From positions 1 through 46,665 of IMG/VR virus record IMGVR_UViG_3300046010_007558: a stretch of 46,665 nucleotides of DNA; one strand, 5' to 3'. A program made the position numbers and the translations under genes. Source of the DNA: a virus. Positions 1 to 46,665 of this stretch are shown here, in pieces (the stretch's first letter is position 1; the number at the start of each line of letters is the position of its first letter). The notes beneath the pieces are model-generated. The model was not told the DNA's origin and did no database searches. It was given only the letters and a program-made list of their open reading frames with translations.

Positions 1-1
1 A

Positions 2-700
2 ATAACTCCAGTAATATCTCACCAAGCAACGCCTTCAAATTTAAATGGAGCAGATTTATTCATAAAATCTGGAAGCTATAGAGATGCTGTAAATTCAGCA
101 GGAACAACTTTAGCAGGGGGAGTTCCAAATAGAGTAAATAATTTTACAAATACAGAAATATCTCAAACAGGTAGTGGTGATAATGAAATGGGTCAACATA
201 AAGTTAATTTTATGTACATTTCAAAAAGAATTCTATTTAATAGACCTTCTTGGATGTTAGATTATCATGTTGACGCAGAATTTTTAAATAGCATAGGGTT
301 AACATATAGAGGATCTGGATTGAATAATCCAAATTCACAAGATTTAGCTGGTTATACAGGAATCTGGGTTGAAAAAGGATTTAATGAGTTTACAATTTAT
401 GTTGGCTTTGTGACAGTAGATCATATGAAAAATACAGGGGTTACACAAGATTTACTTCCTCACAGAAATAGAGACAGCCAAAGATTTGCATCTTTTCTTG
501 TTCCAGTAAGAGATATATTGTATTCTGAACCAACTGCCGTACCAACATGTGGCGCAGGATTTTTAGGAAATGTTAAAGTAGGAAAATGCACATACCCAAC
601 AATTAAATGGAGAATGGTTGGTATATCTCAAAATAGTGCATCATATCACTATGCCAATTTAAATTCATCCAATCCATTAATTTCACTTAACGGAGCATGA
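2..700 (+). CDS. C-terminal part of an unrecognised, probably structural, phage protein (5' truncated by window edge)
   Basis: The frame is open from the first bases of the window to the TGA at 698-700, so the gene starts upstream. The first in-frame ATG is at 188, but nothing marks it as a true start. The visible 232 residues are rich in Asn, Ser, Gly and aromatic residues, without membrane segments or recognised catalytic motifs, which suits a beta-rich virion protein. It is followed after 3 bases by the giant Cys-rich gene, so the two are probably cotranscribed. The only cysteines lie near the C-terminus (around the PTCGAG and GKCTYP stretches). I do not recognise the family; a tail or baseplate protein is an inference from context only. 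Confidence 0.6.
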   Translation: MTPVISHQATPSNLNGADLFIKSGSYRDAVNSAGTTLAGGVPNRVNNFTNTEISQTGSGDNEMGQHKVNFMYISKRILFNRPSWMLDYHVDAEFLNSIGLTYRGSGLNNPNSQDLAGYTGIWVEKGFNEFTIYVGFVTVDHMKNTGVTQDLLPHRNRDSQRFASFLVPVRDILYSEPTAVPTCGAGFLGNVKVGKCTYPTIKWRMVGISQNSASYHYANLNSSNPLISLNGA

Positions 701-703
701 TAA

Positions 704-3700
704 GTGACTGAAACACCATCCTTTGAATGCGGTAAATTTTATCCCGGTCAAGGACCCGGAAACCGTAGAGATAGAGAGCCTCCAGTCACTCCTAAAAGGC
801 ATCCTAGGAGAAGAAGACGGGATGGTGAACCTTGGGGACCTAAGGGACCTATTAGAGATAGACCACCAACTAGATTAATTCTAAGAGTTTGCTGGGTATG
901 TAAAGAGCGTCCTGCAACTGATCCAGAAGGATTTAGTTGTGCAAGGGATGGCACTCCAGTATCAAATGGTCCATGTCGATGTAGATTAATTACAGATAGA
1001 TTTTGTGAAAGAAAAGAAACTTGGGTTCCAGATTTGCCCGGGGCAACTAACTGCCCTGTAAATGAGTTTCAATCGGAACCTGCTTGTGCTTCAGTTTGTA
1101 GAGACGGGGTACAGATTGTTTGTCCAGAACAACCTTGCTTATATTATTTATGTTGTATAAAAGAGGAAAATGAGCAACGGGTTCCTTGCCCACAATATGG
1201 ACCGGGATGTACTTGCCCATTACTTCAATCAGCAAATTGTCAAATATATAATGGTGGCACCGTTGCTATTAATGAACAATGCCCCCCTATAACCTTCGGT
1301 GGATTATGCCCTAATGGAGACAGATTACTAGGTTATTCTTTGAATAGTACTGAAGCCTGTAATGCTCCATGGTGTGCTGATGTCATAGGTCCTCCAATAT
1401 GCCCCGGAGAAACAACTGGGCCTGCGACTCCCGTTCCAATAGGACCCGGACCATCAACTCCCGGCCCCGCAGGACCCGGACCTTCTACTAGAGGCCCTAC
1501 TGATCAAATTTGTCCACCAAGAACTTGTTATCATTGTGTAAATACTGGCAACCCAACAACTGGATGGTTTCCTTGTACACCCCCTAATAATCCATTATGT
1601 AGATGTAGGATAAGGCAAGATAGAGAATGTCGCGTACATTCAATCCAACAAGGTACATTTGATCGTGATTTAGGTAGGTGTGTTTACCCGCCAACTACTG
1701 GACCCGGACCCGGATTCTATGGATGTGAACCTAATGCTTTAGCAACATGCCAAGCATTATGTAGAGATGAAATAGAAGAAGATTGTGGAGATAGGGAACG
1801 AGTTGGTCCTTTAACTCCCGGTCCCGGACCAAGCACACCCGGAGGTCCAACAGGACCCGGACCAGCAACTCCCGGACCCGGGCCAAGTGAAACTGGGGGT
1901 ACTACCACTATAACAAAAACCTGTAGATTTTGTATTCAAACTCCATCCACAGGAACTATTCCCTGCCCTCAATTCGGAGCAGGTTGTAGGTGTGCAATTA
2001 TCTACAATAGAGAATGTAAATTAACGCAGGTAAACAGAAGACCTGATGGAACTTTTCCTGAATGTGCTTCTGTTTTACCAGCAGGTTTAGTTGTAAATTC
2101 TGCACCTTATAGTAATTGCGCTGCCAATGATGGTTCACCATGTGAAAGAAAGTTAGGTGAACCAGTATGTCCTGAAGAACCTAGACCTTTGGGCGAAACT
2201 GGAGGAACTCCAATTCCTCAAGTAAAAACTTATTATGTATGTATAAGAGAAAACGCATCCACAGGAGGGACTATTTTAATTGGGGGCTGCGTAGAGCGCC
2301 GAGCAACTTCAAAACCACCCGGGGCATTTGAAAATTTACAAGCTTGTGAAGCCGTTTGTTCAAGACCTAGAACAACACCAATAGATGGACCCTCAACTAC
2401 TGGAGGACCAGTTCCTTTAGTGCAAAGATATTCTTGTAATACAATCAATGGTAAATGTAGACAATTAACAGTACCACAAAACCAAACTGCTGGGACATAC
2501 GGAAGTTTGGCACAATGTGAATCAGATTGTAGAGCTAGACAAGAAGGTGATACTTTATCCACGGCTGGAGATAGACCTGACCCAATATCAACTTTCTTTA
2601 AATGTAATAAGAGTACTGGAACTTGTGCTGGTATGACTACTACTTTAAGTTTCGCGCAAGCTCAAGGATATTTTACAACTTTAACTGAGTGTCGATTGCG
2701 TTGCCAATCTAATACTGCTGAAGTAGATAGATTATCTAGACAGGTTTTAGGAGGTCTTTCTCAAAGAGAATCAGGGGGTGGAATAATTTCAGACCCTACT
2801 CAAGTTAGAAATTATTTTAAATGTGTAAACAATGCTTGTATATCCACTATTGCAACTCCTACACAAGCTCAAGGACCAGAATATCATTTAACTTTCCAAT
2901 CATGTAGAAATTATTGTAATAATGATGGACCTGTAAATTCAACTTCTGTTGGAGCGGGTATTCAAACAGAGCCTGTAATTTTAGATGATGGTGGGGCAGA
3001 TGATAATGGACCTATTTTTAATGAAAGATTACCAGACGCGGATACTGTCGGTGAAGTTATTTTTACAGGAAATAATAATCCTTCAAATCAAAACCCTGCT
3101 GATATAAATGTTGGAACTAGACCATTCTATGAATTACCAGAAAATGCTGGCGCTGGAGTAGTTAATCTAGACCCCGCAGTTGCAGTTTATGTACCCCCAA
3201 CTACAGACTACAACGAAGCAGTTGTTTATAATTTTAAACTAACTAATTTATTTTCTAACACAATTCACGAATCTATTGCTTATTATTTAGATAAAAATAA
3301 TACATCTGAAGATTGGAGATCTTATTACTCTTCGGATTTAACAATTTATAATATAGAAAAAAGCTTAAAACCAAGTGTAATAAGAATATTTGAAAACATT
3401 ACGGATCAGTTAGGTAATTTAATAGGTAAGGATTATTTCTTAGATGTGATTCGTAGGAAGTTAATTAATGGAACCATAGAAACTTTTGATATTTCTTATT
3501 ATAGAAAGTTAGCTGAGAATCGAACTGCAAAAACAATTGTACCTGAAAAAACTCAAGATCAAGTAGCAAATACTTTAAAAGCTTTTGCATATTTAGAAAA
3601 TAATTTAATTCCTCTAGATGAAACTAAATCAACAGGAAGAACTGCTAAAATAACTCCACTGATAAAAGTTCTAGCAAGTGATTTAGAAAAATCATTAACA

Positions 3701-4981
3701 GTAGAGGTTGATGGTCAACCTAGAAAATATTATATTAATGATGATGATATTGTAATTGGTAGAGCAAATTTAAAAATTTCCGATGGAGATTATATTGAAG
3801 TTGGTCTTGGCGTAAATCAAAGAAGAATTTATTTAGATACAGAAAAGGATCATGCTTATTTAATTCGTGATATAGATAAGATGATTGCTTTAGAATTATT
3901 GAATGGTGATTCTTCTATAATTTTAACAGTATCCTCACCTTACACATCTAACTTAGAATATAATTATTCTTTAAGTGGTGAAAGGGAAAATGTTTATTTC
4001 TTAAAATTAAAAACAGAGACTGTAGAAACAATTAGAACGACTGAATATATTGATACTACAAAAGCCAGATATGATCTTTGCTCCATAAGTACTGAACAAG
4101 ATTTAAGTGCTATTAATGAATATGTAAAATTTAAAGCAAATCATTACATGTTCCCAGTACACCCTGATGATGTTTTTATTGATTATGTAGTGTCATCTGG
4201 TCACATTTATTTACAGCAACAAGATATCCGATTTGACGGACATGCAAGAAAAACAAATAAAAATGTTCCATTACTAGTACGGCAATTACCTTGGTATATT
4301 TTATTATTCCCAACTAATAAGGAAGAGAATAATCCATTTGATATACAATCAGAACTTATTCAATTCCAAACTAACGGAACTAATATTAGAGAATTAATTT
4401 ACGAACTAAGTATTGACAAGAGCGAATATGATGCCAATATTACGACTACAAAATTTGTGGATCTAACGACTACTTACCCTGATCCTAATGTCATAGGTGA
4501 ATATGAGCTAGATGCAAGAAAAGTTATTTTTGATCCAAGTAGCACTTTCTTTAGGTCAGGTTATAAAGATGAAAATAAATCTACAGTTAGACCAAAAACA
4601 CCACTAAGAAAAATTAAAGAAATTATAAGTGAATTAAATTCTAATTATGTTTTAGATAGAGGTTTAACAACCTTCGATGTTTTCTCTAGACTACCTTTTA
4701 CAGACTTTAATAAATTTATATCATCTCCAGCTAATAAGACGATATTTGAAAGAATAAAATCTGGTGCTGTAGATAATATTCAAATATATGAAGTTACTAA
4801 ATACTCTGGGGATGCTTATTTAAATAAAACTGCTTTATTAAAAAGAAGAGCAGCAGCAACTGAAGATTCTTACCCACAGCTTAGATCAATGAATAGTGGT
4901 CAATACATAGAACCGCCAACACAAACTGAGCCTGCTAAGATATTAACTTCAGCAATTAAACAAATAAAACCATTACAATAA
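704..4981 (+). CDS. Giant modular Cys-rich protein with collagen-like linkers; putative virion surface or tail protein
   Basis: 1,425 residues from a GTG start 3 bases after the upstream stop. The N-terminal half is modular. Four type-A cysteine modules (about residues 63-105, 150-180, 275-312, 406-440) share a C-x2-C pair, a Pro-Cys pair, a C-x-C pair and a final Cys. They are joined by Gly-Pro-rich collagen-like stretches near residues 240-268 and 367-398. Four shorter type-B modules (about 510-555, 576-613, 631-670, 703-742) have the pattern Tyr/Phe-x-Cys, Cys, then Leu-x3-Cys-x3-Cys. Residues about 800-1425 form a Cys-poor, Asn/Ile/Tyr-rich region without recognised motifs. Paired cysteines and GPGP linkers suggest a disulfide-stabilised exposed fibre or decoration. 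The neighbouring PAAR-like gene suggests tail or baseplate, but the function is not established. Confidence 0.72.
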   Translation: MTETPSFECGKFYPGQGPGNRRDREPPVTPKRHPRRRRRDGEPWGPKGPIRDRPPTRLILRVCWVCKERPATDPEGFSCARDGTPVSNGPCRCRLITDRFCERKETWVPDLPGATNCPVNEFQSEPACASVCRDGVQIVCPEQPCLYYLCCIKEENEQRVPCPQYGPGCTCPLLQSANCQIYNGGTVAINEQCPPITFGGLCPNGDRLLGYSLNSTEACNAPWCADVIGPPICPGETTGPATPVPIGPGPSTPGPAGPGPSTRGPTDQICPPRTCYHCVNTGNPTTGWFPCTPPNNPLCRCRIRQDRECRVHSIQQGTFDRDLGRCVYPPTTGPGPGFYGCEPNALATCQALCRDEIEEDCGDRERVGPLTPGPGPSTPGGPTGPGPATPGPGPSETGGTTTITKTCRFCIQTPSTGTIPCPQFGAGCRCAIIYNRECKLTQVNRRPDGTFPECASVLPAGLVVNSAPYSNCAANDGSPCERKLGEPVCPEEPRPLGETGGTPIPQVKTYYVCIRENASTGGTILIGGCVERRATSKPPGAFENLQACEAVCSRPRTTPIDGPSTTGGPVPLVQRYSCNTINGKCRQLTVPQNQTAGTYGSLAQCESDCRARQEGDTLSTAGDRPDPISTFFKCNKSTGTCAGMTTTLSFAQAQGYFTTLTECRLRCQSNTAEVDRLSRQVLGGLSQRESGGGIISDPTQVRNYFKCVNNACISTIATPTQAQGPEYHLTFQSCRNYCNNDGPVNSTSVGAGIQTEPVILDDGGADDNGPIFNERLPDADTVGEVIFTGNNNPSNQNPADINVGTRPFYELPENAGAGVVNLDPAVAVYVPPTTDYNEAVVYNFKLTNLFSNTIHESIAYYLDKNNTSEDWRSYYSSDLTIYNIEKSLKPSVIRIFENITDQLGNLIGKDYFLDVIRRKLINGTIETFDISYYRKLAENRTAKTIVPEKTQDQVANTLKAFAYLENNLIPLDETKSTGRTAKITPLIKVLASDLEKSLTVEVDGQPRKYYINDDDIVIGRANLKISDGDYIEVGLGVNQRRIYLDTEKDHAYLIRDIDKMIALELLNGDSSIILTVSSPYTSNLEYNYSLSGERENVYFLKLKTETVETIRTTEYIDTTKARYDLCSISTEQDLSAINEYVKFKANHYMFPVHPDDVFIDYVVSSGHIYLQQQDIRFDGHARKTNKNVPLLVRQLPWYILLFPTNKEENNPFDIQSELIQFQTNGTNIRELIYELSIDKSEYDANITTTKFVDLTTTYPDPNVIGEYELDARKVIFDPSSTFFRSGYKDENKSTVRPKTPLRKIKEIISELNSNYVLDRGLTTFDVFSRLPFTDFNKFISSPANKTIFERIKSGAVDNIQIYEVTKYSGDAYLNKTALLKRRAAATEDSYPQLRSMNSGQYIEPPTQTEPAKILTSAIKQIKPLQ
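1425..1500 (+). repeat. Collagen-like GPGP-coding repeat, first block
   Basis: Short imperfect repeats encode Gly-Pro-Gly-Pro-Ser/Ala-Thr units between type-A Cys modules. The codons repeatedly create CCCGG, the same pattern as in the rest of the window. Confidence 0.7.
1803..1895 (+). repeat. Collagen-like GPGP-coding repeat, second block
   Basis: A second and longer Gly-Pro-rich linker (GPGPSTPGGPTGPGP-type units) lies between the third and fourth type-A Cys modules. The two blocks share near-identical sub-units, so recombination or slippage between them could change module number. Confidence 0.7.
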
Positions 4982-9138: not shown

Positions 9139-10773
9139 ATGGACTCAATGTATATTCATGATGAAAAATTAACGCAGAAGTGGGGGCCTGTACTTGAAGG
9201 CATTAATAACGACTACGACCGTAGAGTAACAGCCCAACTTCTAGAAAATCAAGCTAAAGCTATAGTAGAAGATAAACTTCGTGAAGAAATTTCAACAGGA
9301 GCCACCACAACTGGTCACCTAGGAACCTTCGCTAAGTTTGCTTTCCCACTCGTAAGAAGAGTGTTCCCTGAGCTGATTGCTAAGAACTTCGTGGGCGTTC
9401 AGCCAATGCAAGCTCCAGTCAGCCAAGTATTCTACTTAGGTCACAGCCGTAAGTATGGTACAAATGAAGCTCAGACTGTTTACAGCAAGTTTAACATGAC
9501 CTACCGTGGTTTGACCTCAAACCCAATCGGTTCAGCTTCTGGTACAGATGCTGGTACATTCTATACAGGATCAACTGCTGGAACAGGCACTGGCCTTGAT
9601 GGTGATGTTGCTGTAACTGGTTTCGACCTATCAAATGTGTTACAAACAAACTCACTTTCAGCAATTTATGGTAATGGTGCTCCTTCAGGCACAATGGGCG
9701 GCAAGATTGCTGCATTCCCAAATGCATCCGCAACTTACGGATGGGTAATGAGTGCAGGTGAGCGTCTAAATGGTACAGGTATTCCTGAACTAACCATGCA
9801 CATTGAACAAGAGGCTGTCATTGCTCGTACTCGTAAGATGCGTGCATTGTGGACTCTTGAAGCATCACAAGACCTCAAGGCTTACCACAACCTAGATCTT
9901 GAAAGAGAATTAACTGATCTTCTTTCAAAAGAACTACAGTTGGAAATAGACCGTGAGCTAATCGAAGATTTGCGTATGATTGCTTATGGATTTAACCGTA
10001 ATGATGCAACTTCTGGACTAGGTGGTGTTTCATTACAAAATATGGATAGCAGCTATCTAAACTTTGGTACTTTTGATGGTCTTGCTAACAAAGATACTGG
10101 TGCAACAGGAACTTTTGTTCCCGGACAGTTTACATATGATTTCCCTGTATTGAATGCTACGGCCACAGCTAATCAGTTTGGTGCATTACCAAGCAACAGA
10201 AATGTTTTTGTAGTAGACTTTGGTGCTTTCACTGGCACACTTAATCCCCGTCACCTCGGAGAAGTTTATGCAAACCTCTTGGCAGTAATTAACTTTGCTG
10301 CTCAAGATATCTACAAGACTACAATGCGTGGTCCCGGTAGCTGGTTGCTAACTTCACCTGTTGTTGCATCATTACTTGAGAGTGCTGCTAAGTTGGAAGG
10401 TGGAATTGCTAGAGAAGATGGTCCTACCAATATCACCAATAACTCAATTCAATTTAGAGGCAAGTTCATGGGTCGTTACGATCTCTATGTAGATCCAATG
10501 TTCCCAGATGACGAGATAATGGTTGGTTATAAGGGTTCAAACGCCATGGATGCTGGTTACATCTATGCTCCTTACATCCCACTACAACAGTTGCCAACAG
10601 TAACTGATCCTGATAGCTTCCAACCAAGAAAGGGTATCCTCACCCGTTATGGTAAGGTTGCTATCGAGCCTAACACAAGATTCTACCGTGTAATTAGAAT
10701 CGTAGGCCCCTCACTCAACTTCCTTACTTACCCCTTCGTTGCGGTAACTAAGAAGTGGGGTAATGCTCTCTGA
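9139..10773 (+). CDS. Major capsid protein, T4 gp23-like
   Basis: 544 residues. The N-terminal region has the gp23-family segment TTTGHLGTFAKFAFPLVRRV (about residues 56-75) followed by QPMQAPVSQVFYLGHSR. The centre carries LWTLEASQDLKAYHNLDLER, and the C-terminal half has the family's FMGRYDLYVDPMFPDDEIMVGYKG stretch in overlapping pieces. It builds the icosahedral shell and is cut near the N-terminus by the prohead protease in T4. Codon use differs from neighbours, with many C-ending and CGT codons, as expected of the most highly expressed gene. A strong terminator follows directly, isolating a scaffold-capsid transcript. The ribosome site (TAGGA) is modest. Confidence 0.93.
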   Translation: MDSMYIHDEKLTQKWGPVLEGINNDYDRRVTAQLLENQAKAIVEDKLREEISTGATTTGHLGTFAKFAFPLVRRVFPELIAKNFVGVQPMQAPVSQVFYLGHSRKYGTNEAQTVYSKFNMTYRGLTSNPIGSASGTDAGTFYTGSTAGTGTGLDGDVAVTGFDLSNVLQTNSLSAIYGNGAPSGTMGGKIAAFPNASATYGWVMSAGERLNGTGIPELTMHIEQEAVIARTRKMRALWTLEASQDLKAYHNLDLERELTDLLSKELQLEIDRELIEDLRMIAYGFNRNDATSGLGGVSLQNMDSSYLNFGTFDGLANKDTGATGTFVPGQFTYDFPVLNATATANQFGALPSNRNVFVVDFGAFTGTLNPRHLGEVYANLLAVINFAAQDIYKTTMRGPGSWLLTSPVVASLLESAAKLEGGIAREDGPTNITNNSIQFRGKFMGRYDLYVDPMFPDDEIMVGYKGSNAMDAGYIYAPYIPLQQLPTVTDPDSFQPRKGILTRYGKVAIEPNTRFYRVIRIVGPSLNFLTYPFVAVTKKWGNAL

Positions 10774-10790: not shown

Positions 10791-10828
10791 AAAGAGGCAA
10801 GGAAATAAAACTCCTTGCCTCTTTTTTC
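10791..10828 (+). terminator. Rho-independent terminator after the major capsid gene
   Basis: The 13-bp stem AAAGAGGCAAGGA / TCCTTGCCTCTTT with an 8-base loop is followed by a T-run. It ends the capsid transcript 18 bases after the stop codon. Confidence 0.9.
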
Positions 10829-10832
10829 TTAC

Positions 10833-10840
10833 CTATATAT
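10833..10840 (+). promoter_or_regulatory. Candidate late-type promoter element (CTATATAT)
   Basis: Lies just after the capsid terminator and 14 bases before the next start codon, the same terminator-element-gene arrangement seen near 17394 and 45268. Confidence 0.35.
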
Positions 10841-10853
10841 ATTAGGGAGTTTT

Positions 10854-11078
10854 ATGTTTAAATATAGATCTAAATGTAAATGGAATCAATTATTAAGTAT
10901 AAATAATAAAATAGTTGAAATTAGACCGGGAGAATTTTTTGAAGCTTCTCATCAAGTGGATTCACCTTTTATAGAATTAATTTTAGAGCCTAAAATAAAC
11001 ATAGACTTAAAAAAGAAAAGAGTTGTAGAAGATGTCAACACCAGTGATAGCCAAGCCAAAGATATTGGGTTACGGTGA
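10854..11078 (+). CDS. Small unrecognised protein between capsid and neck genes
   Basis: 74 residues. A TTG codon upstream in the same frame lies inside the terminator, so I chose the ATG at 10854, which has a good TAGGGAG site. The sequence contains VEIRPGEFFEASHQ, a Pro-Gly-Glu turn also present in the small protein before the sheath gene (LKPGEGVVVPDH). The two may be distant relatives, with small beta-barrel character. The 3' end overlaps the next gene by 47 bases in another frame. Role unknown; location suggests a head or neck component. Confidence 0.6.
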   Translation: MFKYRSKCKWNQLLSINNKIVEIRPGEFFEASHQVDSPFIELILEPKINIDLKKKRVVEDVNTSDSQAKDIGLR

Positions 11079-19877: not shown

Positions 19878-20378
19878 AGAATCATTTAATTCTAGTATTT
19901 GATCAAGTATATTTATTTCATATTCCTCAAACCCTATAGTATTATAGAGTTTGGGGAATATGTTTTTTCTAGAAATAATTATTATTGGTTGCCTATCTTG
20001 CTGAAAAATAATTATAAAATCTTTTTTTGCTCTAACTGAATCTCTTTCAGCTTTCGTTATAAAATCCCACACTTCAGAACTCTTATTAAATAGACTGTAA
20101 ATATTTGCTTTGTTATAGCCTTTTTTACATTCTATAATAAATTTAAAGTTTAATGGAGTTATAAGATCCCCAAACATTTTCATATGATCTGGAAGATTAT
20201 GCATTGTAGCAAATGCCCCAGATCCGGGAGTTCTTGCAAACTCTGTTGTATTAAATTTATTATTTAGCAAAGAACAAACTTTTCTTTCAAAAGAGTTTCC
20301 TTTAGAACGACTATTAAGTCTTTTCTTTTTGGACAATTGCGATTTAAAAACATTAGGATCGAAAGAATCTTGTAACAT
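19863..20378 (-). CDS. PD-(D/E)xK-type nuclease, possibly a Holliday-junction-resolvase-like enzyme
   Basis: 171 residues on the minus strand. The ATG at 20378 has AGAGG 7 bases upstream; a longer frame to 20453 lacks such a site. The order of motifs is that of the restriction-endonuclease fold: SKGNSFERKV (E31), RTPGSGAF, FGDLITP (D71), and IIECKK (E83, K85), followed by a helical segment and the strand FIIIFQQDRQPIIIIS. The 'GSGAF ... GD ... ECK' layout resembles archaeal-type resolvases and phage repair nucleases. It is one of only two minus-strand genes and is transcribed away from the plus-strand neighbour. Confidence 0.68.
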   Translation of the reverse strand: MLQDSFDPNVFKSQLSKKKRLNSRSKGNSFERKVCSLLNNKFNTTEFARTPGSGAFATMHNLPDHMKMFGDLITPLNFKFIIECKKGYNKANIYSLFNKSSEVWDFITKAERDSVRAKKDFIIIFQQDRQPIIIISRKNIFPKLYNTIGFEEYEINILDQILELNDSLFIN

Positions 20379-20392
20379 ATGATACCTCTGAA

Positions 20393-21442: not shown

Positions 21443-21456
21443 CTATTATATTTATA
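21443..21456. promoter_or_regulatory. Overlapping divergent promoter candidates between sigma factor and polymerase genes
   Basis: The plus strand carries CTATTATA (within AGGCTATTATA, repeated exactly before the tRNA at 46519-46529). The minus strand carries a perfect T4-type late element TATAAATA at 21456-21449. The gap between the two start codons is only 16 bases. Confidence 0.35.
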
Positions 21457-22478
21457 TGGACCTAGAAAAGCTTTATAAGGGTTTGGAGGTTGCTCCAGAC
21501 AATCCTTTGTGTAGCGGGTGCGTAATTCTCACAAAGACAAAGCCATGCTATGCAGTTCTGGATTATGAACAACAGGACCAGTGTGATGTACTATTCCTCT
21601 CAGATTCATTAAAGTCTAGATTTGGAAAGACTTATGCATTTACTGACTCTGAAGAGGAAATAATCAAGGAAGTTTTTAAACATCCTTTTGCGATGGCAGC
21701 ATCTGTTAAATGCCCATCTGTCAAAGATGGGGATATGAATCCTGCTAGTTTAAATGCATGCCGCAATCATTTAAATGCTACGATAGATAAAATTAAACCA
21801 AAGCTTGTTTTTGCGTGTGGAAATCTAGCTATGAAGATGTTACTTAAAAAGAGTGGCATTACAGATAAGCGTGGGAACTCTTATGATTTTGAGTCCCCTA
21901 ATGGACACAAGTGTGTAGTAGTCCCTGTTTTGCACCCTTATGCAATCATCCAAGAACCTAGACACAAGCCTGTATTTGAGAGTGATATCCTTAATGGATA
22001 TAACAAACATATTCTAGGCAAGGTCAAACAGACTAAGATGGACTATGAATTGATTAAATCTATAAAGGATTTGACCAATTTTGCATACTGGTTGAAGACT
22101 TATCAAAAGCCAATTGCTTTGGATATAGAAACCACGGGTCTAAATTTTCTTAAAGACAAAATCATGACCATTGCAATTGTGACTGATGAGAGATCAGCAG
22201 TCGTACCTATTTATCATAAGGAGTTTGATTGGACCTCTGTAGACGATTACACTGATCACGCAGAAGTATTTGATTTAGTTAGATATGGACTCAATAATAA
22301 TGCTATCAAGGTTTTGCATAATGCTAAATTTGATCTTAAGTTTTTGAATCGTCATGGCGTAACTATCAATAAGGTAGCGGATACTAAAATGATGTCGCAC
22401 ATGGTCAATGAAGAAGGAAAAAACGCACTAAAAGATTTGGTGAAACAGTACTTCCCTGAATACTTGGAGAAACTATAA
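21456..22478 (+). CDS. UDG-like domain plus 3'-5' exonuclease domain of a split family A DNA polymerase
   Basis: 340 residues. Residues 15-185 resemble a family 4-type uracil-DNA glycosylase: C19-x2-C22, C86 and C102 match the four iron-sulfur cysteines, with PKLVFACGNLAMKML and the VVPVLHPYA motif. Residues about 205-340 are a DnaQ-type exonuclease: DIETTG (D223, E225) and NAKFDLKF (D293). The third exonuclease motif and the polymerase domain continue in the next two genes. Family A polymerases with an N-terminal UDG domain occur in some large phages (SPO1). The gene ends in a TAATG overlap with the next frame. No good ribosome site precedes the ATG. Confidence 0.82.
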   Translation: MDLEKLYKGLEVAPDNPLCSGCVILTKTKPCYAVLDYEQQDQCDVLFLSDSLKSRFGKTYAFTDSEEEIIKEVFKHPFAMAASVKCPSVKDGDMNPASLNACRNHLNATIDKIKPKLVFACGNLAMKMLLKKSGITDKRGNSYDFESPNGHKCVVVPVLHPYAIIQEPRHKPVFESDILNGYNKHILGKVKQTKMDYELIKSIKDLTNFAYWLKTYQKPIALDIETTGLNFLKDKIMTIAIVTDERSAVVPIYHKEFDWTSVDDYTDHAEVFDLVRYGLNNNAIKVLHNAKFDLKFLNRHGVTINKVADTKMMSHMVNEEGKNALKDLVKQYFPEYLEKL

Positions 22479-33240: not shown

Positions 33241-34407
33241 ATGAGTGATAAATTAAAAATATTGGTTTGCCCTGCTAATGAAGGCGGTTGTGCTTATTAC
33301 AGGGCCATAGTTCCATATAAAAAACTTGCTGAATTATATCCTGATAAGGTAGAAGTTAGAATGAACTTTAACCCCTTGGGAGTTGATCCCAGTTCAGGAC
33401 AATGGATACCTAATTGGCCCTTTGAGGATATGAAATGGGCTGATATAGTAATGGTTAGCAACCTGAGTAACTACGGTGGAAACTATACAGCTAGAATCGT
33501 AGGTAAGGCTAAAGAGTTTGGCAAGTTTGTACACTACGATACAGATGATCTATTAACTGATTTGTACAAAGGACATAGATTGTATGGTGTTTATCAAGAG
33601 CGAGGGTTAGGAGAAATAACTAAGTTTATATATCATCACTCAGATTTAGTCTCAGTAACTCAACAAAAGTTTGCTAGTAGAATAAAACCATTCTGTACAA
33701 AATACTTAGCGGTTATAAAGAATTCAATAGATTATAATCTTCCTTGCTGGAATATGCAAAGGGTTCTGTTGAAGAAGAACATTTGCCGTTTTGGTTGGGC
33801 AGGAGGGATTCACCATGAGCAGGATCTCCATGTATTTGCTGGTGTCCCTGCAATGGTTAATCAGCGTGTAGGCCCACAGAATTGCAGATGGGATTTTTAT
33901 GGGCATCCTCCACCAGACACAAAGAAAGACGATTGGCAAGTATCTGTTTGGAAGAATTACAAAGCTAAGTTCCTAGGTAATATGAAGAGGGACACTAATT
34001 TTGGAATTCATTATGCATTACCTACAGATAGATATGGATCATTCTTTACTAATATGGATGTTGCATTAGCACCGTTAGAAATGAATGAGTTTAATGATTC
34101 CAAGTCTGAGATTAAGGTAGCAGAATGTGGAAGATATCAAATTCCTTTGGTAGCTTCTAATGTTGGGTGCTATGATGAATGGATAATAAATGGAGAGACT
34201 GGATACCTAATAGATCATGATGCACCTAAAACTGAATGGGTGCGTATATTGACTAAGATAGCTAAAGAAAGAGATCATCGAGAGGAGATGGGTAGAAGAC
34301 TTTATAAGCTAACAGAAGAAAACTTTGATCTTAACAAAGTTGCTATAAATAGACTTAAGATCTATGAGCAACTATTGAGGAAACCCATACAGGTTCAAGC
34401 AGTATGA
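33241..34407 (+). CDS. GT-B glycosyltransferase (family 4-like)
   Basis: 388 residues. The N-terminal half starts KILVCPANEGGCAYYR with a Rossmann-like order and HYDTDDLLTD. The C-terminal half contains RFGWAGGIHHEQDL, DVALAPLEMNEFNDSKSEIK followed by VAECGRYQIPLVAS (the E-x7-E-type donor-binding region of GT4 enzymes) and ending NGETGYLI. Retaining transfer of a nucleotide-sugar moiety is expected. It opens the glycan cassette. The ATG lies directly after the terminator's T-run, with no ribosome site, so its expression must come from read-through or special initiation. Confidence 0.85.
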   Translation: MSDKLKILVCPANEGGCAYYRAIVPYKKLAELYPDKVEVRMNFNPLGVDPSSGQWIPNWPFEDMKWADIVMVSNLSNYGGNYTARIVGKAKEFGKFVHYDTDDLLTDLYKGHRLYGVYQERGLGEITKFIYHHSDLVSVTQQKFASRIKPFCTKYLAVIKNSIDYNLPCWNMQRVLLKKNICRFGWAGGIHHEQDLHVFAGVPAMVNQRVGPQNCRWDFYGHPPPDTKKDDWQVSVWKNYKAKFLGNMKRDTNFGIHYALPTDRYGSFFTNMDVALAPLEMNEFNDSKSEIKVAECGRYQIPLVASNVGCYDEWIINGETGYLIDHDAPKTEWVRILTKIAKERDHREEMGRRLYKLTEENFDLNKVAINRLKIYEQLLRKPIQVQAV

Positions 34408-34721
34408 AAACTTTTAAACACTCAGGTGATTTGGGGGATATAATTTATTCGTTACCTACCATGAAAGATTTAGGTGGAGGTATACTTTACTTAGATGTTT
34501 TAGGTGGTGCAGACGATGAATATTGCAAATTACAATTAAAGTATCCTTGAGACGGAAAAACTAAATTTAACCAAAAAGGATTTGATTTTTTAGACTATGA
34601 TTATATTGGTGCTCCATGGTTAGAAGTACCAATTAGTGATGATTGTAAAGTTGGAAATGGTGGATTTTCTCTAAGAAGTAAAAAATTATTAGAGGAAACT
34701 TCCTTACTTCATGAGGTTATA
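34404..34721 (+). pseudogene. Decayed chimeric glycan-gene remnant with in-frame TGA
   Basis: The ATG at 34404 (ATGA overlap with the glycosyltransferase) opens 48 codons: MKTFKHSGDLGDIIYSLPTM and a GGGILYLD stretch, the start of a phage sugar-transferase-like protein. A TGA at 34548 interrupts it. The same frame then continues without a start codon through FLDYDYIGAPW and KVGNGGFSLRSKKLLEE, the C-terminal hallmark of another transferase-like family (I believe DUF5672). It runs on in frame into the aminotransferase ATG at 34722. A deletion joining two genes, followed by a nonsense mutation (TGG to TGA would restore KYPWDGKTKF), explains it best. This is the only gene-poor stretch above 300 bases in the window. 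Confidence 0.75.
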
Positions 34722-35867
34722 ATGCAAAAAAATATCCCATTATTTAAAGTTTTTATGTCAGATTCCGCAGCAGCGGAAGTCACCAAAGTTTTGAACTCTG
34801 GCTTCATTGGACAAGGCCCAAAAGTTGAAGAGTTTGAGAAAGAACTGCGTTCTTATTTCAACCACGATTATGTTTTGACACTGAACGCAGGTACTTCTGT
34901 ACTTCATTTAGCATTGCATCTTTTAAAAAAACCGACAGATTCTTGGTCTGGTTTAGAAGATGGTGATGAAGTTCTTGCTACCCCATTAACTTGCACGGCA
35001 TCTAATTGGCCTATACTTGCAAATGGTTTGAAGATTAAATGGGTAGATATTGATCCAAAAACATTAAATATGGATTTGGATGATTTGGCTAGAAAAATAT
35101 CTCCAAAAACAAAAGTAATAATGCTTGTACATTGGGGTGGGTATCCAAATGATTTAGATAAAATAAAGCAGATACAAGAAACCGCAAAAGCTATGTACGG
35201 TTTCAAGCCAGCAGTAATAGAAGATGGGGCACACTCATTTGGTTCAACTTATAAGGGTAAACCAATAGGCACTCATGGTAATCTAACCATATATTCTTTA
35301 CAAGCTATTAAACATATTACTAGCGTAGATGGTGGATTACTATTGAGTCCTCATAGAGAATTACACAAAAGAGCAAAACTAACCAGATGGTATGGAATTG
35401 ATAGAGATTCAGATAGAAAAGATTTTAGATGTGAAGCTGATATTGAGGAATGGGGATTTAAATTTCACATGAATGATGTGTGTGCTGCAATAGGTAAAGA
35501 AAACTTAAAGTATAGTAATAAAATAATTTCTAAGCATAAAGAAAATGCGAAATTTTATGATTCTAATTTGAATAACATTTCTGGATTAAGACTCTTGGAA
35601 AGACAACAAGGGTATGATTCTTCCTTCTGGATTTATAGCATACTTGTAGATAGACGAGATGATTTTTCTAGGTACATGAAGGAAAAGGGTATAATGACAT
35701 CTCAGGTTCATGAAAGAAACGATAAGCATACTTGTGTGCGGCAATATAGATCTCAGTTACCTACCTTAGATCAAACAATAGGTAAACTATCAGCCTTGCC
35801 AGTCGGCTGGTGGGTATCCAACGAAGATACTGAATATGTTGTTGATTGTATTAAAAGAGGTTGGTAA
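34722..35867 (+). CDS. DegT/DnrJ/EryC1-type sugar aminotransferase
   Basis: 381 residues. PLP-dependent transfer of an amino group to a keto-sugar nucleotide. Seen are SGFIGQGPKVEEFEKEL, LNAGTSVLHLAL, PLTCTASNWPIL, VIEDGAHSFG (PLP-binding Asp) and SLQAIKHITSVDGG with Schiff-base Lys197. The C-terminus has the substrate-binding FWIYSILVDRRDDF segment and SALPVGWWV. Length is usual for the family. It would supply an amino-sugar to the neighbouring transferases. The TAA overlaps the next ATG (TAATG). Confidence 0.92.
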   Translation: MQKNIPLFKVFMSDSAAAEVTKVLNSGFIGQGPKVEEFEKELRSYFNHDYVLTLNAGTSVLHLALHLLKKPTDSWSGLEDGDEVLATPLTCTASNWPILANGLKIKWVDIDPKTLNMDLDDLARKISPKTKVIMLVHWGGYPNDLDKIKQIQETAKAMYGFKPAVIEDGAHSFGSTYKGKPIGTHGNLTIYSLQAIKHITSVDGGLLLSPHRELHKRAKLTRWYGIDRDSDRKDFRCEADIEEWGFKFHMNDVCAAIGKENLKYSNKIISKHKENAKFYDSNLNNISGLRLLERQQGYDSSFWIYSILVDRRDDFSRYMKEKGIMTSQVHERNDKHTCVRQYRSQLPTLDQTIGKLSALPVGWWVSNEDTEYVVDCIKRGW

Positions 35868-36595
35868 TGGTGAAGTGTTTAAAAATAATTTCTTGTTTTT
35901 TTGGGAAAAGAAGAAAATTTAATAATAATCCTACAACTCCAGAAGAGTGCCTAAAGTTTTTGAAAGAGTCAATTGAATTAGATATTAATCTAGATTCTGG
36001 AGAGCCTATGGATATTCTATTAATTAACAATAAAAATAACTTTTTAGAAGGAGATTCTTATGTTAATTCTTTAAAAGGGACAAAAACAAAAAATGGAATT
36101 ATTAAAGTAGTAGTTAGAGAAAATGTTGGTGGATCTTTTGGATCTTTTTCTGATGGTTTCGATATGTGTAAACATGATTATGGTTACTTCCTATTCAATG
36201 AAGATGACATACGAATCTTGAAAGAAAATTACTTTTCTCAGTCGATAGAAAAATTAAATACAGACAAACAAATTGGATTTGTTGCTTTTGCTCCAATCCA
36301 TAGGGGCAATCCAATCCATTCTGGTGGAGGATTTGGTATTACATCATCAAAAATTATAACATCTATTTTAGGAGATAGTAAAATAGCATATGAAAAATCG
36401 GTTGATTATTCTGCTCTACAAAGAAATGAAATAGAGTTTACAAATATGTACGATAGGGCTGGTTTAACGATTGTTAATTTAGATCAATATTGTACCTTGG
36501 CAAGTAATTATACTTTACACGCTTCTCAAAATAGACCACCGTATAACACAGAAATTCTTAGTGGGAAACCATTCTTATATAAAGTGGGCTTTTAA
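35867..36595 (+). CDS. GT-A-fold glycosyltransferase-like protein
   Basis: 242 residues from the ATG in a TAATG overlap (an upstream TTG is less likely). The central part reads MDILLINNKNNF, VVVRENVGGSFGSF and YFLFNEDDIRI, where Asn-Glu-Asp-Asp takes the place of the DxD metal/nucleotide-sugar motif. A glycine-rich IHSGGGFGIT follows. The order matches family 2-like transferases, although the usual C-terminal acceptor domain is short. Within the cassette it likely adds one sugar. Confidence 0.68.
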   Translation: MVKCLKIISCFFGKRRKFNNNPTTPEECLKFLKESIELDINLDSGEPMDILLINNKNNFLEGDSYVNSLKGTKTKNGIIKVVVRENVGGSFGSFSDGFDMCKHDYGYFLFNEDDIRILKENYFSQSIEKLNTDKQIGFVAFAPIHRGNPIHSGGGFGITSSKIITSILGDSKIAYEKSVDYSALQRNEIEFTNMYDRAGLTIVNLDQYCTLASNYTLHASQNRPPYNTEILSGKPFLYKVGF

Positions 36596-37245
36596 TGAAT
36601 AACAAGTATATCCCGATATGTGTCAATCCACCAGCAGCCTTGTATGGTGGATCTAATACAGAGCCTTTAGCATCTATGGGAATGTCTTGCTTTTTAGATC
36701 CTATGGGTGATAAATTTTGTGAAGGTGTATCTATCTTAGATTATGGATGCGGAGCAGGTATTTTAGCAAACCATATCAGTAAACAACTTAAAAATTTTAC
36801 TTATTATGGTTTGGAACCTCAAAGTAAGCACGGAGAAGAACGCTTATCTCTAGCTAAACAATATATATCGGATCCTAGATGTAGTTTTGGTTTTATAGAA
36901 CACGAATTAATTACTACATTAAAGAAAAAAATAGATTCGATTATCTTGATATCTGTTTTTACTCATCTGGAAGATCGAGATATAATTAATACTTTAGATT
37001 CTTTATGTAGAGTATTTGATCATAACCCTGAGTGTGATATAATATTTTCTTGTTTTTTAAGTACTGAAAAAAGATTAGTAAATTTTATGCCTCACATATG
37101 GTCAAGATTTTTTGGTGAAAGTTACATACCTATTTCAGTATTAGAAAATTACTGTAAAAATAAAAATTTAAGTTTAACTCATTGTACGAGTTTTTTGGCT
37201 CAAGGAAATTACATGCACGAAATTTTTAGGATTAAAAAATTATGA
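36595..37245 (+). CDS. SAM-dependent methyltransferase
   Basis: 216 residues in TAATG overlap with the previous gene. SAM motif I is ILDYGCGAG (47-55), followed by the acidic YYGLEPQ strand end (motif II) and SIILISVFTHLEDRDI (motif III/IV-like, 'FTHL'). It is class I and small, without DNA-methylase catalytic motifs such as DPPY or PC. The cassette context suggests methylation of a sugar or of a glycan end. Confidence 0.82.
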   Translation: MNNKYIPICVNPPAALYGGSNTEPLASMGMSCFLDPMGDKFCEGVSILDYGCGAGILANHISKQLKNFTYYGLEPQSKHGEERLSLAKQYISDPRCSFGFIEHELITTLKKKIDSIILISVFTHLEDRDIINTLDSLCRVFDHNPECDIIFSCFLSTEKRLVNFMPHIWSRFFGESYIPISVLENYCKNKNLSLTHCTSFLAQGNYMHEIFRIKKL

Positions 37246-37817
37246 TTGGCTGGAACGAATCTATAAAAAAAGAATTAGGTTTTTGCGGGAACAATGTTTT
37301 TATTGGTCACAATGTATTGTTCACTAACCCAAAAGAAGTTTTTTTAGGTGATAATGTTAGAATAGATCCTTTTTCCTTAATTACCACTAAATTAAAAGTA
37401 GGAAACTTTGTACAAATATGTTCTCATACCGTTTTAGGTGGTGGGGCTGCACATCAAATAACATTAGGTGATTGGACCTTTATAGGTTATGGATCTAAAT
37501 TATTTTGTGCTTCCGAAGATTACAGTGGGGAATTCGGACCTGTAAATGAATTTTGGGGAAACAATAAAATATTTAGAGGGGATATCACTATAAATGATTA
37601 TGCTGGGGTAGCATCAGATGTTATGCTTTTCCCGGGGGTTCAAATTCCAGAAGGTTGCACCATAGGTGCTAAAAGTTTTGTACACACTAAAAATAAACTA
37701 GAGCCGTGGTCCATATGGTTAGGTAACCCATTGACTTTCCATAAAGAAAGAAACAAAAGTCAGATTATAAAAAATGCAAAGGATATTAATTTTTACAAGG
37801 AAAGAGCAAAAAAATGA
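37242..37817 (+). CDS. Left-handed beta-helix acyltransferase (hexapeptide repeat)
   Basis: 191 residues. Hexapeptide repeats are visible as NNVFIGHNVLF, FLGDNVRIDP, VGNFVQICSHTVLGGGAAH, LGDWTFIGYG, INDYAGVASDV and PEGCTIGAKSFV. The end PWSIWLGNPLTFHKER is the usual 'G.PAk..r' terminator of O-acetyltransferases. The HQI histidine in GGAAHQ may be catalytic. It would acetylate (or acylate) a sugar hydroxyl or amine. ATGA overlaps at both ends tie it to the cassette. Confidence 0.88.
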   Translation: MIGWNESIKKELGFCGNNVFIGHNVLFTNPKEVFLGDNVRIDPFSLITTKLKVGNFVQICSHTVLGGGAAHQITLGDWTFIGYGSKLFCASEDYSGEFGPVNEFWGNNKIFRGDITINDYAGVASDVMLFPGVQIPEGCTIGAKSFVHTKNKLEPWSIWLGNPLTFHKERNKSQIIKNAKDINFYKERAKK

Positions 37818-38680
37818 AAAATTATAAACATGATTCTTCTTCTATGAATTGGCCTTGGTGTGAGTCGCCCTTTTTTTACGATATTCTAAATGCACAAAAT
37901 TTTTCTAATTCTGAAAAGGAGCTAGTAACTCAATATCATGAAGAGGGTTATTGTATAGTTGATTTAGATCTTTCTCAAACAGATCTATCTAACATGAGAC
38001 AAGAGGTTGATCGTATAAACAATTCCGATGCTGTTAAATTGCAGGATTCTGGGTATCATTATTCCAAGGGTAAGAGGATTTTTGAGGCATGGAAGAGTAG
38101 TGATTTACTAAAAAGTTTGTCTTTAAATAGTAAAATTTTAGACATACTCAATTTACTGTATCAAAGAAAACCTATTCCATTTCAGACAATAACTTTTAAC
38201 TATGGTAGTAATCAGCCTTTGCATAGTGATACAATTCACTTTCATTCCCTACCACATAGATGGTTAGTAGGAGCTTGGGTAGCTTTAGAAGATATGGATG
38301 AAAATAATGGATCTTTAATTTATGTTCCAAAAAGCCACAAGTTACCAGTGTTTGATTTTTATGACTTAAATATTTCAACTCCTAAATTTGGGGAACAGTT
38401 TGATGCCTATTCTGAGTATGAAAATTTCATAGCACAACTAATAGATTCTAAAAAATTAGAAAAAAGAACCTTGAAGTGTAAGGCAGGGTCTGTTTTGATT
38501 TGGGCGGCTAATTTAGTTCATGGTGGTGACATTATACGAGATACAAATAGATCTAGGTACAGTCAAGTAACTCACTATTATTTTGATGGGTGTGATAAGT
38601 ATTACACTCCAATGTTTTCGGACGCATGGAAAGGGTCTTTTTCTGAAAAAAATCTAAAGGAGAAGAATTTTTATGTCTAA
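37814..38680 (+). CDS. Phytanoyl-CoA-dioxygenase-like Fe(II)/2-oxoglutarate oxygenase
   Basis: 288 residues. The double-stranded beta-helix metal triad is LHSDTIHF (H137, D139) and NLVHGGDI (H236), with R248 (NRSRYSQVTHYYF) for 2-oxoglutarate. WVALEDMDENNGSLIYVPKSH is the typical PhyH loop. Such enzymes hydroxylate small molecules, lipids or sugars. In this cassette it could modify a nucleotide-sugar or an attached glycan. ATGA overlap upstream; overlaps the next gene by 8 bases. Confidence 0.88.
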   Translation: MKNYKHDSSSMNWPWCESPFFYDILNAQNFSNSEKELVTQYHEEGYCIVDLDLSQTDLSNMRQEVDRINNSDAVKLQDSGYHYSKGKRIFEAWKSSDLLKSLSLNSKILDILNLLYQRKPIPFQTITFNYGSNQPLHSDTIHFHSLPHRWLVGAWVALEDMDENNGSLIYVPKSHKLPVFDFYDLNISTPKFGEQFDAYSEYENFIAQLIDSKKLEKRTLKCKAGSVLIWAANLVHGGDIIRDTNRSRYSQVTHYYFDGCDKYYTPMFSDAWKGSFSEKNLKEKNFYV

Positions 38681-39353
38681 TTGGGAAAAAGAATATCTAG
38701 CTTATATGGATGAAAGAGATAAAAAGATAAAAACTATTGTCGCTTTTGGAGGCTCTGGAGGTTTAGCGCAAAAAACACTTCCATACTTAAAAAATTACAA
38801 TGTAAAGTATTTGTCATCCAAAGACTGTGATGTAAGAGATTATTCTCAAGTAGAACATCATATAAAAGGCTCTGATGGGTGTATTTATTTTTCTGTTGTA
38901 AACCATGATAACCTAATAGCTAACTTGAATGAGGGGGAGGTAAAACATTCACTTGATGTCAATGTACTTGGTTTCATAAATGTATTAAAAGCAAGTGCAA
39001 ATGAGTACAAAACAAAAGGTTTAGGTAGAGTAATTTACATATCTTCCATATTAAGTAGTAGCCCAATAAAAGGCACAAGCATTTACGCAGCTAGTAAATC
39101 TTTTTGTGAAACTATGGTTAAAGTTTATGCACAGGAAAATGCTAAATTTGGAATAACTTGCAACAGTATTCAATTGGGCTACTTTGATGCTGGCTTAGTA
39201 TACAAGGTTCCAGAACCTGTTATATCGAATGTGAAACAATCAATTCCACTAAAAAGATTTGGAGACTGTATGGAACTAAGTATTCTAATTGAATCTATTT
39301 TAAAAAACGATTATTTATCTGGGGCTAATATCAAATTAGCAGGAGGTCTTTGA
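38673..39353 (+). CDS. Short-chain dehydrogenase/reductase
   Basis: 226 residues. The dinucleotide-binding loop is FGGSGGLAQK (25-34), with an Asp-Val pair (CDVRD) for the cofactor and NVLGFINVL. The active site is SSILSS followed by YAASK (Y138, K142), and the C-terminus is LSGANIKLAGGL, the usual 'TG..i.vdGG'. The first glycine of the classical TGxxxGxG is shifted, but the pattern holds. It probably oxidises or reduces a keto-sugar as part of this cassette. Confidence 0.88.
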   Translation: MSNWEKEYLAYMDERDKKIKTIVAFGGSGGLAQKTLPYLKNYNVKYLSSKDCDVRDYSQVEHHIKGSDGCIYFSVVNHDNLIANLNEGEVKHSLDVNVLGFINVLKASANEYKTKGLGRVIYISSILSSSPIKGTSIYAASKSFCETMVKVYAQENAKFGITCNSIQLGYFDAGLVYKVPEPVISNVKQSIPLKRFGDCMELSILIESILKNDYLSGANIKLAGGL

Positions 39354-39354
39354 T

Positions 39355-40089
39355 ATGTCAAATTTAAAATATTTAATATTACTAGCTTATTACAAAAGAC
39401 CAAAAATAGTTTTAAATGCGTTGGATAGTATAAAAAAATTAAAGTATGAAAACTGGGAATTACACTTTATAGATGATTCTGGTGATTCCTCTTTTAAGGA
39501 CACTTTATTTTCTTTTGGATTGCCGACAGACAAAGTAAGATACTTCCCCATTTTGGACACCGATGAAGTTAAGAAAAAAAATGGGGGATCCAGACACGGG
39601 GAGTTCCTCAATAATTCTATAAAAAATACGGATAGTGATGTGGTTATTATCTTATGTGATGACGATGCTCTGTGTTCTGATTATTTAAATAACTTAAATA
39701 TCTTCTATTCAAATAAAAATAATATGTGGGGATACTGTCATGTCCTATTTTTCGACCCATATGAAGAAAAAATTGAACAAGCTAAACCATACCCTAAAAA
39801 CCCTGAACTTGGTTGGTGTATGCTAAATATACCTAGATGCCCAACTTCACCTGTTAATAGATTAGATGGGTCTCAGATTACATTTAGAATAAGTGCATTA
39901 AAAGAAAAAAACATAACATACCCTTATCCACAAACAACTAATTTGGATCGTGCTATACTCCAACAAATGTATTCCAACTACGGTGAATGTAAGTTTACTT
40001 CCTGTATTGGACAATATAAAGGTTGGTTTACTAAACAGTTAGGTTTCCGAGAAAGAGTTACAAATGATATTTTTACGGATAATCCGTAA
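39355..40089 (+). CDS. Family 2-like GT-A glycosyltransferase
   Basis: 244 residues. LLAYYKRPKIVLNALDSIKK is the typical GT2 start, HFIDDSGDSS follows as the UDP-binding strand, and VVIILCDDDALCSDYL holds the DxD metal motif. The rest resembles the acceptor half, with Trp/Cys-rich segments (GWCMLNIPRCP). It ends the cassette, with only 1 base separating it from the dehydrogenase gene. Inverting transfer from a nucleotide-sugar is expected. Confidence 0.83.
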   Translation: MSNLKYLILLAYYKRPKIVLNALDSIKKLKYENWELHFIDDSGDSSFKDTLFSFGLPTDKVRYFPILDTDEVKKKNGGSRHGEFLNNSIKNTDSDVVIILCDDDALCSDYLNNLNIFYSNKNNMWGYCHVLFFDPYEEKIEQAKPYPKNPELGWCMLNIPRCPTSPVNRLDGSQITFRISALKEKNITYPYPQTTNLDRAILQQMYSNYGECKFTSCIGQYKGWFTKQLGFRERVTNDIFTDNP

Positions 40090-40107
40090 CTTTAGTAATA
40101 CTTAAAT

Positions 40108-40115
40108 CTATATAA
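40108..40115 (+). promoter_or_regulatory. Candidate promoter element (CTATATAA) after the sugar cassette
   Basis: Lies in a 107-base gap between the last glycosyltransferase and mazG. The gap holds no other recognisable signal, apart from AATTATAATTT at about 40144. Confidence 0.35.
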
Positions 40116-40196
40116 TATTGGGACCGTCATAGTTCAACTCCAAATTATAATTTAAATAACTTAGGAAAAACTAAACAGGATGACTCTAATACCAAT

Positions 40197-46490: not shown

Positions 46491-46521
46491 ACTATATGTT
46501 TTTAAAAAGGCTAGATCTAGG

Positions 46522-46529
46522 CTATTATA
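46522..46529 (+). promoter_or_regulatory. Candidate promoter element (CTATTATA) before the tRNA
   Basis: The 11-mer AGGCTATTATA (46519-46529) is identical to that before the polymerase genes (21440-21450). It lies 14 bases before the tRNA acceptor stem. Confidence 0.42.
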
Positions 46530-46543
46530 AAAGAGTAGCACAC

Positions 46544-46620
46544 GCGACTGTAGCTCAGTTGGTTAGAGCGTTGTTCTTATAAAGCAAATGTCGGTGGTTC
46601 AAATCCACCCAGTCGCACCA
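46544..46620 (+). tRNA. tRNA-Ile, anticodon UAU, with encoded CCA
   Basis: The acceptor stem GCGACTG (46544-46550) pairs with CAGTCGC (46610-46616), followed by A and CCA. The D arm is GCTC/GAGC, the anticodon stem TTGTT/AGCAA has one G-T pair, and the T arm is GGTGG-TTCAAAT-CCACC. The loop CTTATAA places TAT at 46578-46580 as anticodon, reading AUA. AUA is frequent in this AT-rich genome, so the tRNA likely supplements a host poor in AUA decoding. Encoded CCA is common in phage tRNAs. Confidence 0.95.
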
Positions 46621-46633
46621 ATCAGGTAGGAAG

Positions 46634-46654
46634 AGTCAAACCGTAAGGTTGACT
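46634..46654 (+). other. Hairpin with GUAA tetraloop at the window edge
   Basis: AGTCAA-A-CC (46634-46642) pairs with GGTTGACT (46647-46654), leaving one bulged A and a GTAA loop (GNRA type). It may be part of a further RNA gene or a processing signal after the tRNA; the window ends too soon to tell. Confidence 0.35.
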
Positions 46655-46665
46655 GGCAGAACAAC

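Follow-up and report, generated by a model that had tools for sequence, protein, structure and literature searches.

Absence of ACGT from a T4-like phage fragment

The IMG/VR virus record IMGVR_UViG_3300046010_007558, whose 46,665 bases (GC content 35%) are referred to here as the window, belongs to a T4-like phage and contains not a single copy of the tetranucleotide ACGT. Markers of a T4-like myovirus were found in it, namely the gp23 capsid protein, the S77 prohead protease, a gp32-like protein and the contractile tail sheath. The window is probably a fragment of the virus, because an open reading frame (ORF) runs off its left end and the records of its relatives reach 106-130 kb. Its further genes encode a family A polymerase domain, ThyX, ribonucleotide reductase, DnaB and RecA-like proteins, and a cassette of sugar genes (Table 1).

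Table 1. Features of the window discussed in the text, with profile matches and E-values
Feature	Position	Strand	Remarks
ACGT-free and CCWGG-free tract	1-46665	.	0 ACGT, 0 CCWGG
Major capsid protein gp23	9139-10773	+	PF07068, 2.8e-80; query for relatives and tree
PDDEXK_15 nuclease, resolvase-like	19863-20384	-	PF24608, 1.9e-24
Sugar/surface-type gene cassette	34389-40141	+	Unaligned to the relative G004 (99.5% identical elsewhere)
Class I S-adenosylmethionine (SAM) methyltransferase inside cassette	36595-37245	+	PF13489

An exact search confirmed the claim of a preliminary description of this DNA that ACGT is missing from the entire 46.7 kb; the trinucleotides ACG and CGT occur 200 and 176 times, respectively. 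An order-2 Markov model predicts 50.0 copies of ACGT, and the corresponding z-score of -9.6 is the most extreme among the 256 tetramers. When synonymous codons of the predicted ORFs were shuffled (100 shuffles), the site appeared 74.5 times on average and never fewer than 56 times, so that the absence is not reproduced in codon-shuffled sequence. The remaining 15 palindromic tetramers all occur, in 10 to 487 copies each, as the preliminary description had noted for five of them. The removal of ACGT has spared the proteins, as codon contexts were switched and the substitution was mostly silent: the Thr codon ACG is used 46 times in the ORFs and never precedes T, the Arg codon CGT is used 97 times and never follows A, and at codon junctions NAC|GT is not found at all, as against 126 cases of NAT|GT.

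Distribution of ACGT among relatives

A scan of viral contigs with the capsid protein yielded 55 loci, and 17 longer records were counted separately. ACGT is absent from the near kin of the window (L001-L007, L051 and L054), among which L001 and L002, whose capsid is identical to that of the window, may represent the same virus population. Among the longer records the site is missing from G006, a 106-kb near relative of the window (0/129; here and below, site counts with a slash are observed/expected), from the distant 130,604-base G045 (0/168) and from G020 (0/35). It is present at 21/178 in G028, which is 92% identical to G045, and is carried by relatives such as G037 (44/52), G041 (51/52) and G013 (115/172). 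An artefact of composition or codon usage in an AT-rich coding genome, which the low GC content of the window might bring to mind, has a practically negligible probability, being refuted by the Markov and codon-shuffle controls and by relatives of similar GC content that keep ACGT, i.e. G021 (34%, 72/76) and G025 (35%, 33/42).

With thresholds set at 0.2 and 0.4 of expectation, the 56 rows (window included) comprise 22 in which ACGT is lost, 32 in which it is kept, one intermediate, and one for which the expectation is too low. On a capsid tree of 51 of these rows, from which five capsid fragments shorter than 300 aa had been dropped, ACGT has switched state no fewer than six times, compared with four changes for CCWGG and five for CCGG. 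The relatives also differ in which sites they have lost, a pattern to be anticipated were the lineages to encounter hosts whose enzymes differ.

Other lost sites and their symmetry

CCWGG, too, is absent from the window, as the preliminary description had stated, against 49.5 copies expected from the order-2 model and 46.6 from the codon shuffle of ORFs. That description inferred at least two restriction specificities, an inference that is well supported but too modest, because CTGCAG, ATCGAT, CAGCTG, GGTACC, TGGCCA and TCCGGA are likewise missing. Among the 45 palindromic hexamers with an expectation of at least 4 in the window, 11 do not occur, compared with 0.07 by chance; some of the 11 contain ACGT and are therefore not all independent. 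G045 is devoid of 30 of the 64 palindromic hexamers, and for 22 of these 30 the expectation is at least 5 (8 containing ACGT or CCGG). No palindromic hexamer is absent from a 160-kb sample of a Prochlorococcus assembly.

The loss is concentrated in palindromes. If only hexamers with an expectation of at least 8 are considered and words containing ACGT are excluded, the count is zero in G045 for 15 of 49 palindromes versus 23 of 1963 other pairs, 18 of the 23 containing CCGG, and in G006 for 9 of 46 palindromes versus 10 of 1913 other pairs. The ten nonpalindromic words missing from G006 comprise eight with CCWGG, one GGTCTC and one AGCGCC. The nonpalindromic GGTCTC/GAGACC, the BsaI/Eco31I site, stands at 0/21 in G006, 0/10 in G007 and 2/8 in the window.

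Flanks of tetranucleotide cores were tabulated for three long relatives (G045, G013 and G006); expectations in the window are small. In all three, the flank lost within a given core is mostly the self-complementary one. For instance, around the TCGA core of G045 (flanks in lower case) aTCGAt and cTCGAg are eliminated (0/30 and 0/16), but aTCGAg and aTCGAa are retained (39/44 and 65/66); similarly, cTGCAg is found at 0/31 versus 94/82 for cTGCAa, and gGTACc at 0/24 versus 48/62 for gGTACa. The loss is not universal, since the palindromes GGATCC, CCTAGG, CCATGG and TTCGAA are near expectation in G045. Two-fold symmetry of the lost contexts would be the mark of dimeric Type II enzymes.

In G006, G013, G048, G034, G045 and the majority of the other long relatives, there is hardly any copy of the motif SAGCTS (CAGCTG, GAGCTC, and CAGCTC/GAGCTG as a pair); it stands at 3/26 in the window and is less depleted in G020 (8/26) and G037 (3/21). 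WAGCTW and WAGCTS are near expectation in the long records of the clade.

Maintenance of the depletion over divergence

The window and G006 are 77% identical over 37 kb of aligned sequence, with 8,114 substitutions. Given these, 39.3 new ACGT sites are expected in the direction from the window to G006 and 38.6 in the reverse direction, and none is seen in either. Because about 39 expected gains are missing each way, the selection is current, i.e. the depletion of ACGT is upheld by ongoing selection. In the pair of G045 and G028, 82.0 gains are expected from G028 to G045 and none is found, and 80.7 are expected in the opposite direction, of which 11 are found. Thus, G028 looks partly released from the pressure on ACGT; three of its 21 copies fall in a stretch without a counterpart in G045. 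Most other palindromic tetramers gain half to all of the expected number; from G045 to G028, gains of GATC amount to 101 of 97.9 expected and those of TATA to 92 of 184.4, and CCGG, itself purged, has 3 gains of 46.5 expected.

These counts bear on the possibility that mutation bias alone erased the site, hosts methylating ACGT and the methylated C being deaminated without any selection. Such a bias would be compatible with the CpG included in ACGT and with the excess of ACGA in the window (102 copies versus 64.2 expected). New sites should, however, then remain visible, and none of those expected between the window and G006 was found. Moreover, deamination does not account for the absence of CCWGG and of the CpG-less CTGCAG, GGTACC and TGGCCA, and gives no reason for the flank symmetry in the relatives, so that we consider it highly improbable.

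Phage genes as candidate causes

The preliminary description had offered, as an alternative to restriction, that the phage itself acts on ACGT, and this part of it found no support, although a phage enzyme of some unknown family is conceivable, since only part of the genes were compared with a family library and the records are fragments. The C5 and N6/N4 DNA methyltransferase families PF00145 and PF01555 had no match in 40 records (the window and 39 of the 55 loci), and PF02086 had none in 22 (the window and 21 others), all of these records being fragments. In 14 control genomes, the three families were matched in 10, 11 and 4 cases, respectively. The SAM methyltransferase of the cassette matches none of these three, which were the DNA methyltransferase families searched, and it lies in a stretch that is unaligned in G004, a relative equally free of ACGT.

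The phage could also encode an ACGT-specific nuclease of its own, which would degrade host DNA and whose site the phage would avoid. The window indeed contains one PDDEXK-family nuclease (Table 1), the absence of ACGT is absolute, and many of the phage genes have no family match. However, in a survey of 50 of the 55 loci (all except L013, L022, L028, L039 and L053) the nuclease was found in 19 records, comprising not only six ACGT-free ones (G004, G005, G006, G020, G023 and G045) and the ACGT-poor G028, but also 12 that bear ACGT (G012, G013, G018, G021, G022, G025, G029, G030, G032, G034, G037 and G048). Most of the 31 records without a match end before the locus, judging by coordinates; the ACGT-bearing G039 seems to span it and has no match. 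The protein is nearly the same in G045, with no ACGT, and in G028, with 21 copies, where only 3 of 175 positions differ.

The nuclease belongs to PHROG 244, annotated as 'RusA-like Holliday junction resolvase'. It matched no solved structure by sequence; a search with its predicted model (mean pLDDT, the predicted local distance difference test score, of 78) in Foldseek returned archaeal Hjc at ranks 1-12 (E 8e-4 to 1e-2, TM-scores 0.3-0.5), with the first restriction enzyme, DpnI, at rank 20 (E 0.086). Its presence in both ACGT classes and its resemblance to Holliday-junction resolvases led us to reject it as the cause of the loss. As a single nuclease would also hardly explain some 20 motifs that differ between relatives, a phage-encoded agent of this kind is very unlikely.

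Gene content was compared between nine ACGT-free or ACGT-poor records and nine ACGT-bearing ones, a confounded comparison in which the fragments cover different regions, and within it no gene tracking the loss of ACGT was found. Clusters present in several free and in no bearing records belong mostly to regions that few bearing records cover. A short ORF that follows the capsid gene (window 10815-11078) at first appeared in all nine free or poor records versus two of the nine bearing ones, but a looser search recovered it from four of the latter (G013, G019, G037 and G048). Its copies in G045 and G028 do not differ, and hence it does not track ACGT. Inspected by eye, the genes that differ between G045 and G028 include no methyltransferase and no known anti-restriction gene; a 113-aa ORF of G028 looks, by eye only, thermonuclease-like.

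Probable restriction by the host

We consider it very probable that every ACGT was lost because the hosts of the phage carry, or until recently carried, a Type II restriction-modification (R-M) system that cuts unmethylated ACGT. Each new copy of the site would expose the phage DNA, itself presumably unmodified, to cutting and would be removed by selection, and ACGT would be one of several sites purged together, along with CCWGG, CTGCAG, ATCGAT, CAGCTG, GGTACC and others. The proposed specificity is of the MaeII/HpyCH4IV kind. A different host process directed at ACGT, e.g. a non-restriction defence, a motif of clustered regularly interspaced short palindromic repeats (CRISPR), or a transcription or packaging signal, might be envisaged. 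Nevertheless, the complete disappearance of numerous symmetric sites that are unrelated to one another, in sets specific to each lineage, fits dimeric Type II enzymes better, and such a process appears most improbable.

Several observations weigh against restriction by the host as the explanation. Many of the relatives are only fragments of 4-8 kb, for which the expectation of ACGT is about 5-20. A few asymmetric contexts are also in short supply, namely cAGCTc (2/55) and cCGCGa (2/12) in G045, and aGCGCc (0/10) and aCATGc (10/35) in G006. Some of the lost motifs, such as SAGCTS, CWCGWG and GWCGWC, are degenerate palindromes, and we know of no enzyme that recognizes motifs of this sort. Gains of other tetramers, too, fall short of the simple model, with the lowest values between the window and G006 for CGCG (0 of 9.8 expected) and GCGC (4 of 14.4). 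Finally, the analysis revealed neither a host nor an enzyme specific for ACGT, and the only candidate host had to be rejected, as follows.

The single match to a genome contig places G045 apparently within the Prochlorococcus single-cell assembly AG-409-P03, the letters of the two not having been compared. This assembly encodes a SinI-type (GGWCC) endonuclease (PF09570, 3.2e-40) adjoining a C5 methyltransferase; in the 160-kb sample of the assembly GGWCC is depleted (51/162), and ACGT is found at 253/249. Because G045 retains GGWCC (115/125) and the cell keeps ACGT, the avoidance seen in G045 is not explained by this cell, and AG-409-P03 was rejected as the selecting host. The association may reflect contamination, adsorption or a recent host; a literature search returned no paper on AG-409-P03. 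A phage contig that keeps the site of the cell's own enzyme calls for caution when hosts are assigned from single-cell assemblies. The cyanophage marker psbA (PF00124) was matched in none of 18 records.

Comparison with known cases of site avoidance

One report (PMC6286503) gives the share of viral genomes with complete or nearly complete elimination of Type II sites as roughly one in ten, and links the phenomenon to orthodox Type II sites and, for the most part, to non-temperate DNA phages. Loss of GATC across the whole genome of phage K is described in another (PMC6532042). In one 46.7-kb stretch per phage, which we used as a yardstick, GATC stands at 0/100 in phage K, GATC and CTAG at 0/89 and 0/40 in Mel-JY01, and TCGA at 0/35 in HTVC008M. 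Palindromic hexamers with an expectation of at least 4 are absent in 16 of 47 cases in Mel-JY01, 12 of 42 in HTVC008M, 11 of 45 in the window, 4 of 39 in P-SSM2, 3 of 33 in phage K, 1 of 44 in T4, 0 of 44 in LIS04 and 0 of 46 in SP-15. Among the phages compared, the window therefore ranks high in hexamer loss without being extreme.

The window resembles Staphylococcus phage K, with its avoidance of the Sau3A site, in being derived from a large double-stranded DNA (dsDNA) phage from which a 4-bp site is absent; in phage K, however, the site is GATC and both host and enzyme are known, whereas the window is devoid of ACGT and CCWGG and its relatives differ in their lost sites. It likewise shares with the viruses treated in PMC6286503 a dsDNA phage genome, palindromic sites and complete elimination; the main text of that report never mentions the string 'ACGT', and here the turnover of the site is traced within one uncultured T4-like clade. 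Microcystis phage Mel-JY01 and Pelagibacter phage HTVC008M have T4-like structural genes and several eliminated palindromes in common with the window, but the motifs are different and the sheath proteins are only about 36-38% identical over partial length. Among the matches listed, the capsid is 28-35% identical to phage proteins and the sheath no more than about 38%, and megablast against named phages gave no match for the first 25 kb of the window or for 11.6 kb of G045.

A literature search found no paper joining phage, restriction site avoidance and ACGT, a result that says little; another, combining several terms on uncultured T4-like phages, also gave none. Most likely, the window is a further, clear-cut example of an evasion strategy already known and does not represent a new kind of system. 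The absent sites would be a fingerprint of the restriction systems met by a phage, so that the enzyme sets of hosts might be deduced from the genomes of their uncultured phages. The clade, in which losses arose independently more than once and the pressure on G028 has apparently relaxed in part, offers material for timing such changes.

Pro-Gly pairs and possible limits set by the genetic code

Every Pro-Gly pair creates the sequence CCNGG. In the ORFs of the window, all 46 such pairs use CCC or CCG, though CCA and CCT make up 81% of the Pro codons. Conversely, in relatives that have lost CCGG or nearly so, Pro-Gly is encoded only with CCA or CCT (all 135 pairs in G045, all 87 in G048 and all 85 in G013), and G021, which has lost neither CCWGG nor CCGG, uses all four Pro codons at these positions. 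Since Pro-Gly forces CCNGG, the loss of CCWGG and that of CCGG would be mutually exclusive as long as the dipeptide is kept. Accordingly, CCWGG is lost in 16 and CCGG in 16 of the 56 rows, and both in none (Fisher 0.002 on rows that are not independent; the tree provides four independent pairs, for which the sign test is not significant).

A firm rule of this kind is countered by phage K, where GGNCC and GCNGC stand at 0/26 and 0/17 in 47 kb, which indicates that forced sites can be lost, presumably via protein change. These two sites are forced by Gly-Pro and Ala-Ala, respectively, and phage K seems to be without these dipeptides in its 47-kb stretch. We therefore put forward only tentatively, as an idea somewhat less likely to be right than wrong, that the clade keeps a readable record of the restriction enzymes of its hosts and that the genetic code limits the sets of sites that can be purged. 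If true, a host with both CCWGG and CCGG specificities could not be evaded by silent changes, and SAGCTS, lost across the clade, would indicate that the hosts have in common a specificity not yet described.

Other features of the window

The cassette of sugar genes has Pfam matches to DegT, hexapeptide transferase, PhyH, short-chain dehydrogenase and glycosyltransferase 2, and itself has neither ACGT nor CCWGG, of which 4.6 and 4.4 copies, respectively, are expected. At its position G004 carries about 6.2 kb of different sequence, and to judge from the alignment a surface-modification block has apparently been exchanged. An ORF of 1425 aa at 704-4981, rich in Pro, Gly and Cys, contains collagen-like and cysteine-rich stretches and has no PHROG match. 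At 21456-22478 and 22950-24062 the family A polymerase domain is found alone in its ORF, and 3'-5' exonuclease and uracil-glycosylase-superfamily domains occur together in the ORF upstream of it.

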